NCBI GenBank assembly: GCA_951828385.1
Contig: OX639973.1
Span: 930,001-994,000 of the forward strand
Reading direction: 5' to 3'
DNA: 64,000 bases
Source: an uncultured Poribacteria bacterium
Lineage (GTDB): Bacteria > Poribacteria > WGA-4E > WGA-3G
Both the position numbers and the translations under genes were made by a program. Below are positions 43,783 through 57,300 of this stretch, piece by piece. Every line of letters starts with the position of its first letter. Within the stretch, counting starts at the first letter, position 1. The notes below the pieces were generated by a model. It was given only the letters and a program-made list of their open reading frames with translations, did not search any database and was not told the origin of the DNA.

Positions 43783-43842
43783 GTAGGGGTGAGGTTCCCT
43801 CGTCCCCGTTGGGGCAATCGGGCGGGGAGCCCCCGCCCCTAC
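43783..43842. repeat. GTAGGGG...CCCCTAC palindromic element
   Basis: The 60-bp GC-rich element in the nuoL-nuoK gap is bounded by GTAGGGG and CCCCTAC. Inside are three small hairpins: GAGG-TTC-CCTC, CCCC-GTT-GGGG and GGGCGGGG-AG-CCCCCGCCC. Its ends are the same as those of the palindrome inside the restriction-modification gene at 56072-56098. It may act as an mRNA-stabilising structure between two nuo genes, but that is a guess. Confidence 0.55.
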
Positions 43843-54307: not shown

Positions 54308-57300
54308 ATGCGACAACTCAATCTCAAAACTAACGACAAAGCGATCCGCGACTATTACATCACACTGCAGCAATACAAAGCGCACGCGATTACACACGAA
54401 GGCGCGGTCAGTTCGCCTTTTGATACACTCCTGCAAGTGTGTGCCCAGCAGGTAAACGCCACGCTTGTCCCGCAATATGCGATGCGCACTGTAGCGGGAA
54501 ACCGAATCGTCATTGACGGCGTGATACTCGACGAATACGGACTCCCTTTCGCTTACTGGGAAGCAAAGGACACTGACGACGACCTCATCAAAGCCGTCGA
54601 AGCCAAAAGCAAGGCAGGTTACCCGCTTGACAATATCCTTTTCCAAAACCCGCGACACGCCATCTTGTATCAGAACGGACAGGTAGCATTAGACCTTGAC
54701 ATCACCGAACCGGCACGTCTGATTGCAGCACTCCAGTATCTTTTCTCATATATCCCACCGGCACTTGACAATTGGCAGACTGCGGTCGCGGATTTCAGAG
54801 AACACGTACCAGACCTCGCCAACAAATTGAAAGAACTCATTGACCAACAACACAAAACCGATCCTGCGTTCAAAAAGGCGTTCATGGACTTTTACGAGAC
54901 CTGCCAGACCGCGATTAACCCGGAACTTTCACAGGCTGCCGTTGAGGAGATGCTGATTCAACACATCCTCACGGAACGTATTTTCCGCACCGTTTTCAAC
55001 CGTTCGGATTTCACGCGGCGAAATATTATTGCCCGCGAGATTGAAAACGTCAGCGACGCGCTCATGCAGCACGCGGTGAGTCGCGACGCGTTTCTTGCAC
55101 CCCTGGACCGGTTCTACCTCGCGATTGAACAAGCGGCACTGCTCTGCAAAGACTTCTCGCAAAAACAGCACTTCCTCAACACCTTTTATGAGAAGTTTTT
55201 TCAAGGCTTCTCTGCGGATGTTGCCGATACACACGGCATTGTTTACACGCCACAACCGATCGTCGATTTCATGGTGAAAAGCGTTGAACATATCTTGAAA
55301 ACCGAGTTCGATCGATCGTTGTCGGACAGCGGTGTGCATATTATTGATCCGTTTGTCGGGACGGGCAACTTCATCGTCCGCCTCATGCAAGACATCCAAG
55401 GCGCGGCGTTAGAAGAGAAGTACCGCCACGAGTTGCATTGCAACGAGGTGATGCTCCTGCCCTACTACATCGCGAGTCTGAACATAGAGCAGGAATTCTT
55501 TCAACGCACGAGGACATACGTACCGTTTGAGGGGATCGCGCTTGCGGATACGTTTGAGTTGCTTGAGCAGCAGCAAGGTGAGCTCTTCACACGTGAAAAC
55601 ACGGAGCGGGTCAAGCAACAGAAGGCAGCGGATATGTTTGTTGTCATAGGTAACCCACCTTACAATGCATGGCAGGTTAACGATAGCGACAATAACAGAA
55701 ATAGAAAATACGCGGCAATGGACGATCGGATTGCCGAAACCTACGTAGCAGATTCTAAAGCAACCCTCAAAAATGCACTCTACGATCCATACATAAAAGC
55801 GATTCGATGGGCATCTGACCGGATTGGTGCGGAAGGCGTTGTTGCATTCGTGACAAATAACGGATTTCTTGAGGGTTTAGCGTTTGATGGGATGCGGAAA
55901 CACCTCGCAAATGATTTCGACGCGATCTATGTTCTTGATTTAGGTGGAAACGCTCGGAAGGGATTAAAGGTCTCGAATGCGAATGTGTTTGGCATTCGGG
56001 TGGGCGTGAGCATCAATTTTTTCATCAAAAAGAGTTCCGTCAAGGTTGAATTATCCAACAAAAAGAGTTCCGTAGGGGTTGGGTTACCCAACCCCTACTA
56101 CTATAAAGCAGACGAGCTGTGGAATAAACAGCGGAAATTCGACTTTCTGAATGAATGCGGACACATAGGCAATATTGAATGGCAAGCGATTCAACCGGAC
56201 GCACGATATACTTGGCTCACCGAAGGGCTCCACGCCGAGTTTAACACCTTTATCCCTATTGGAACTAAAGAAGCGAAGGCGCAGAAAGGTGTAGCGACGG
56301 ATGTGATCTTTAAGACTTACTGCAGAGGTGTCGTGACCAACCGCGATGCGTGGGTTTACAACTTCAACCGAAATGCCCTAACCAAAAATGTTCAGGGAAT
56401 GATCGGCATTTACAACACAGAGGTAGATAGGTGGAGGCGTCGAGAGAATCAGCGAGTGGCGGTTAATGATTTTGTGGTTTATGATGATACGAAGATTAAA
56501 TGGGATCGGGAATTACGTCAACACTTGCAACGGGGCAGATATGCTGAATGGACAGACAACAAGGTGCGTACCTCACTCTATCGTCCGTTTACCAAATCAA
56601 ATTTGTTCTTCGACCGGGTTTTGAATAATTGTGTTTACTTACTGCCATCCTTCTTTCCAACGCCTGAAACAGAAAAGGAAAATCAGGTGATATGGCTTAA
56701 GGTGGGAAAAGAATTGCCGATGTTTGCCCTAATGACAAACCAAATTCCAGACTTACTGCCACAGAGTGGTTCTCAATGTTTCCCTTTCTACACCTACAAT
56801 GAAAATGGCACAAACCGACAAGAAAACATCACCGATTGGGCATTGGCGGAATTCCGAAATCACTACAATGATGATACTATCACCAAGTGGAACATCTTCC
56901 ACTACAATTACGCCCTCTTGCACCATCCGACCTATCGTGAGAAATACGAGATGAACCTCAAGCGCGATCTCCCGCATATCCCGTTTGCCGAAGATTTCTG
57001 GGGATTTGCGAAAGCAGGCGAGGTGTTAGCAGATATCCACGTCAACTATGAAGCTGCTCCGGCATACAATCAATTGAGACAATCCGAAACATCTGGAGTG
57101 CCGGTCAATTGGTACGTGGAGAAGATGAAGATGTCCAAAGACAAGACGCAGTTGAAATATAACGAGTTTTTGACGCTGGACGGCATCCCTGTGGAGGTTT
57201 ATGACTATAAGTTAGGGACTCGGTCTGCGTTGGAGTGGGTGGTCGATCAATATCGTGTGAAGGTAGACAGGCGGAGTGGGATTAAAAACGACCCGAATCG

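Follow-up and report, generated by a model that had tools for sequence, protein, structure and literature searches.

A 27-nt palindromic repeat dispersed in a Poribacteria genus and carried in frame within protein genes

A type ISP restriction-modification gene of an uncultured Poribacteria bacterium carries, in frame, one copy of a palindrome that recurs throughout the genome and is concentrated in a single Poribacteria genus. The repeat family is designated PAL27, after the 27-nt pattern GTAGGGGnnnGGTnACCnnnCCCCTAC that defines it; the genome (G000) comprises 6.66 Mb, and the window is the whole 64,000-nt stretch of it that was analysed. PAL27 is quite probably a dispersed REP-like repeat that has expanded in this genus and whose copies in genes would persist where they fall in loops tolerant of length changes and carry no stop codon.

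The window protein has domain matches to PF18135 (E 7e-96), PF22240, PF02384 and PF07669, with 7lo5, 5ffj (LlaGI) and 4xqk (LlaBIII) as relatives in the PDB. As originally noted, its gene (Table 1) contains a perfect palindrome, with 13-bp arms and one central base, for which 100 shuffles produced no match, and the reading frame remains unbroken across the palindrome and across both units of a 33-nt tandem repeat, the first of them decayed. The units are identical over AAAAAGAGTTCC and present 6 differences downstream. All of these lie in the palindrome part, a pattern to be expected had the first copy decayed and the 12-nt lead stayed unchanged. These differences fall within 14 consecutive positions (15-28 of the unit), with a clustering p of about 0.003 if differences were evenly spread, for an interval picked post hoc. 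On folding, the hairpin is no longer present in the first unit; PAL27 as single-stranded DNA is predicted to fold at -12.8 kcal/mol (z -5.2), with GTAG pairing with CTAC. The intergenic element to which the palindrome had been likened does share the GTAGGGG and CCCCTAC ends, but it is a related two-hairpin form and not a PAL27 copy.

Table 1. Positions in the window of the host gene, its repeat units and the related intergenic element
Feature	Position	Strand	Basis or remark
Type ISP restriction-modification gene, 1029 aa	54308..57397	+	Coupler, N6 methylase, ISP specificity domain
First 33-nt unit: 12-nt lead plus decayed, truncated palindrome; KKSSVKVELSN	56027..56059	+	Tandem comparison
Second 33-nt unit: 12-nt lead as in first unit plus first 21 nt of palindrome; KKSSVGVGLPN	56060..56092	+	
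PAL27 palindrome GTAGGGGTTGGGTTACCCAACCCCTAC, phase 0, read as VGVGLPNPY	56072..56098	.	Palindrome test, genome counts, fold
Intergenic 60-nt two-hairpin (REPIN-like) element, GTAGGGG...CCCCTAC ends	43783..43842	.	Related form, not a PAL27 copy

The ISP homologue set consisted of 80 loci, labelled almost all as Poribacteria, and an alignment with 22 homologues gave 47 aa for residues 566-612 of the window protein vs a modal 36 aa. The additional residues that had been predicted are thus present, and the 25 residues concerned are not conserved in the homologues; nevertheless, the net gain, as judged from the aligned sequences, is 11 residues (33 nt), equivalent to one tandem unit, and not 25. 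This unit, to which the extra length corresponds, holds most of the palindrome. The solved structure 7lo5 also has fewer residues in the region, and in an AlphaFold model of the window protein residues 575-594 join two strands, although this is a low-confidence model (pLDDT 60) that lends weak support. Two other homologues have different in-frame inserts in the linker: that of L082 resembles the REP beside the G000 RAYT gene L107 (ACGGGCGATGAATCGCCCTACTACAAAC), and a longer one lies around position 5228 of L089, a locus that also holds repeated GTGCCGAGACCAGGG. About 23 type ISP restriction-modification matches were found in G000 (e.g., C1:1231698, 2503912 and 540268), and such matches are numerous in every congeneric genome too.

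Since linker length differs between ISP homologues, an ordinary variable loop with a palindrome formed by chance could be envisaged. This explanation is refuted by the shuffling result and by the recurrence of the perfect 27-nt palindrome in G000, where PAL27 occurs at 62 sites with at most 3 mismatches (the reversed control giving 1) and exact GTAGGGG(N5-35)CCCCTAC at 31 sites. The absence of the palindrome from the rest of the genome, which would have refuted the original observation, was therefore not borne out, and many copies lie in open reading frames (ORFs). With at most one mismatch, PAL27 was found in 34 of 38 congeneric genomes, at 0-52 copies each, the four with none being G003, G014, G034 and G037. 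Outside the genus, 16 of 47 genomes of the phylum had it, at 0-4 copies per genome. PAL27 is, then, concentrated in one genus.

In comparisons with close relatives, the palindrome apparently represents the derived state. Empty sites were searched for by querying relatives with the joined flanks minus the palindrome, using pairwise and MAFFT alignments; flank identity to the nearest relatives is about 85-90%, and conservation reaches close to the palindrome edges. At site 2154437, PAL27 is common to G000, G008 and G030, with identical borders, and G001, G005 and the more distant G034, G036 and G037 retain a five-codon WSRL[LP] loop. Copies shared at one site by several genomes also occur at 1515112, 2631514 (a decayed copy) and 2158787. 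In addition, PAL27 lies at one site of an apparent aminotransferase (HisC-like) gene in two genomes (L182:1501-1527 and L206:330-356).

The same comparisons modify the idea of insertion into genes, which is right as to the frame; at most sites part of a loop seems to be replaced rather than cleanly interrupted. Most sites have 27 nt in place of 9-18 nt of the relatives, namely 15 nt at 1347935, 2154437, 1356508, 2632813 and 3505116, 12 nt at 3728141 and 9 nt at 2426875, and about 5-10 nt are lost at the intergenic sites 3507632, 5509517 and 1354497. PAL27 would thus usually replace 5-18 nt of its target, a picture less clear-cut in the ISP gene and GcvP and drawn from relatives at moderate distance, whose flank identity of about 85-90% leaves room for later editing of the empty sites. 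Visual inspection of the listed flanks and of the aligned sites revealed no flanking direct duplication of the MITE type. Replacement, both within and between genes, favours the view that template switching or short-homology gene conversion gives rise to the palindromes or spreads them, with a hairpin from elsewhere copied into a gap in place of the target. This is also suggested by the GTAG- or CTAC-like edge that a relative already possesses at 410210, 4918808, 2632813 and 2972611. However, such edge similarity is not general, the alignments are ambiguous at this level of identity and no copy was matched to its donor, so that template switching is entertained only tentatively. Microhomology of the palindrome ends with the empty sites was seen at few sites only and was not retained as a general feature.

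Copies inside genes were surveyed in 0.80 Mb of G000 fetched around 53 PAL27 copies, with ORFs of at least 150 aa. Twenty-nine of the 53 were within ORFs, which cover 85% of the surveyed sequence; PAL27 is therefore under-represented there (p 1e-7), yet common. When each congeneric genome was represented by a single locus, 12 of 34 copies were in ORFs, so that the majority in this genus sample is extragenic. A looser G000 list of 30 in-ORF sites served for the orthologue and phase counts; alignments with a relative extend over both flanks at 25 of these sites and put the palindrome peptide in a gap-rich loop. The short peptide is apparently tolerated in such loops, the status of the host genes being putative and based on ORFs and orthologues. 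From their sequences, the hosts presumably include LpxB (palindrome-bearing stretch ...CRGEVTSPLQIPSIK), GlgB, GcvP, galactokinase and CtaA/COX15, and we also take ABC ATPases, WD40 proteins and an Omp85-like protein to be among them.

The three reading phases of PAL27 differ in their consequences. Phase 2 always contains TAG. Phase 1 is invariably free of stops, with RGxVTxPL as its peptide, and phase 0, read as VGxGLPxPY, is stop-free only with C or T at the centre on the coding strand. In-ORF copies were distributed over phases 0:1:2 as 10:19:1 in G000 and as 5:7:0 in the genus sample, the expectation for random placement followed by removal of stops being 1:2:0. The centre base was T in 8 and C in 2 of the phase-0 copies, never A or G, because either of these would create a stop, and in phase 1 all four bases were found (A6, C3, G6, T4). 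Phase and centre-base counts fit random placement with a stop filter, with the proviso that the ORF definition excludes stop-bearing copies and hence forces part of the pattern. The independent part of the argument is the scarcity of split genes: among 24 non-ORF copies, 2 could represent a gene split by the palindrome stop, and both resemble natural gene ends.

It could be argued that in-gene copies are kept for a function, either as a DNA or mRNA hairpin signal or as a selected peptide, and the four sites at which several genomes share a copy speak in its favour. This seems very improbable considering that host genes are unrelated, that phases and peptides differ, that ORFs are depleted of copies, that one of the shared copies is decayed and that four congeneric genomes have none.

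Another explanation is that PAL27 is a canonical GTAG REP moved in trans by a RAYT (Y1 HUH) and inserted as a single-stranded hairpin. PAL27 indeed begins with GTAG and forms a GC-rich hairpin, and RAYT genes abound in the genus, several having similar GTAG REPs, for example GTAGGTTCGGTTTCCTAACCGAACC, on their flanks. Moreover, G000 has two RAYT reptrons (L107:1035-2373 and L106:1139-1972) with GTAG REP arrays of their own, composed of GTAGTAGTGCGATTTATCGCA and GTAGGAGCGAGCTGCGCTCGC, as well as REPIN-like dimers of 50 nt and 60 nt whose GTAGGGG ends face outward. From these dimers, PAL27 may be a collapsed REPIN. On the other hand, the GTAG of PAL27 is paired with CTAC, when the tag of GTAG REPs lies at one end, outside base pairing (PMC3733652), and target bases are lost, when a clean IS200-like insertion would lose none. 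PAL27 was absent from the flanks (about 1.5 kb) of all 30 RAYT-family loci examined in the genus, and those loci with recognisable adjacent repeats display other REP families. RAYT count and PAL27 copy number are also uncorrelated (rho 0.05, p 0.77, some genomes being incomplete). An IS200-like Y1 gene of G000 (L105:1282-2260) is flanked by repeated palindromes other than PAL27 (CACCCCTACGGGGTG). A dedicated RAYT was thus rejected as the PAL27 mobiliser, given that any recognisable repeats beside the G000 Y1 genes and the 30 genus loci are of other families, and mobilisation in trans as a canonical REP is considered possible but doubtful.

A shorter repeat of 21 nt, GAAACACCCnAGCAAAAAC, is found at 119 sites in G000 with at most one mismatch (control 0). 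Most of 30 inspected sites (L208-L237) sit within GTAG/REP-type palindromes, RAYT-type REPs included. Within coding PAL27 copies the element adds 21 nt, that is seven codons, in frame, as at site 1520960, where the net difference to L187, an orthologue with an intact palindrome, is +21 nt. It is present in two of three G000 WD40 paralogues and also in G036 at site 4918808. A bolder proposal, which we hold to be rather unlikely, is that PAL27 and this nested element together act as a mobile system, independent of RAYTs, in which a hairpin-copied sequence replaces target bases and so rewrites protein loops, generating in-frame diversity across many proteins.

In the explanation favoured here, that of a dispersed REP-like repeat, PAL27 would have spread as a selfish or neutral repeat, nearly at random in phase and orientation. 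Its 27 nt amount to nine codons, palindromy renders both strands nearly equivalent, and in-gene copies would survive in length-tolerant loops when in a stop-free configuration. In the window gene, the linker that follows the methylase domain holds a copy, and its lengthening by 11 residues would be due to slippage that duplicated 33 nt. The most uncertain step is how copies are written; the loss of about 5-18 nt of target suggests hairpin-templated copying or gap repair over clean Y1 transposition.

How tiny repeats can spread within genes that stay unbroken is now shown in a new lineage, the Poribacteria, with an allele-by-allele record (empty, filled, and filled with a nested element) in conserved genes. 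Phase and centre-base counts make the tolerance of proteins to random nine-residue changes countable, and target replacement, if it holds in closer strains, would point to a mode of spread unlike known REP/MITE transposition.

Among known repeats, MITEs have target-site duplications, for which the PAL27 sites gave no sign by eye. Cyanobacterial small dispersed repeats, as reportedly described by Elhai in 2008, are 21-27 nt long, with nested insertions. PAL27 and its nested element are like them in length and nesting, but belong to another phylum and have coding insertions as their main feature. Such small dispersed repeats are mentioned in PMC3116915 (Bertels and Rainey 2011). Most REPs and REPINs lie outside genes, and they are linked to a RAYT (PMC2817692; PMC3116915), with the great majority of the REPs identified by Nunvar (2010, PMC2817692) being extragenic. 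PAL27 shares with REPINs and RAYT reptrons the GTAG start, the hairpin and the dimers present in G000, but differs in being solo, often intragenic and absent from the flanks of the 30 RAYT-family loci.

Rickettsia palindromic elements (RPEs; Ogata 2000, 2002, summarised in PMC10969869) are about 150 bp long. PAL27 resembles them as a palindrome in frame within unrelated protein genes, a parallel that had been foreseen, for another lineage and repeat family, and that the genome survey and orthologue comparisons support. However, PAL27 has 27 nt, belongs to a different sequence family and lineage, and seems to replace target bases. The original prediction is refined here, since it did not name the intragenic GTAG-tagged REPs. 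Full-text searches of an incomplete literature collection returned no paper tying Poribacteria to such repeats, and the name is absent from the main text of PMC3733652 (Di Nocera et al. 2013). That study reported GTAG and CGTC REPs within ORFs, most in Opitutus terrae, which has the highest number of intragenic GTAG REPs, and R. conorii, whose intragenic RPE-4 and RPE-6 it equated with CGTC REPs, and considered REP insertions perhaps neutral in flexible linkers or loops. PAL27 is not a strict GTAG REP, given its fully symmetric structure with the tag paired in the predicted hairpin, its absence from the flanks of the 30 RAYT-family loci and its location in G000, where about half of the copies are intragenic. 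It further differs from the published repeats in its Poribacteria host. It is nonetheless, like these REPs (palindromes of 20-40 nt), a short, GC-rich and multicopy palindrome that starts with GTAG and is sometimes in frame within unrelated ORFs. In light of the published intragenic GTAG/CGTC REPs and RPEs, PAL27 therefore works like known elements, with intragenic GTAG-tagged REPs as the nearest described kind.
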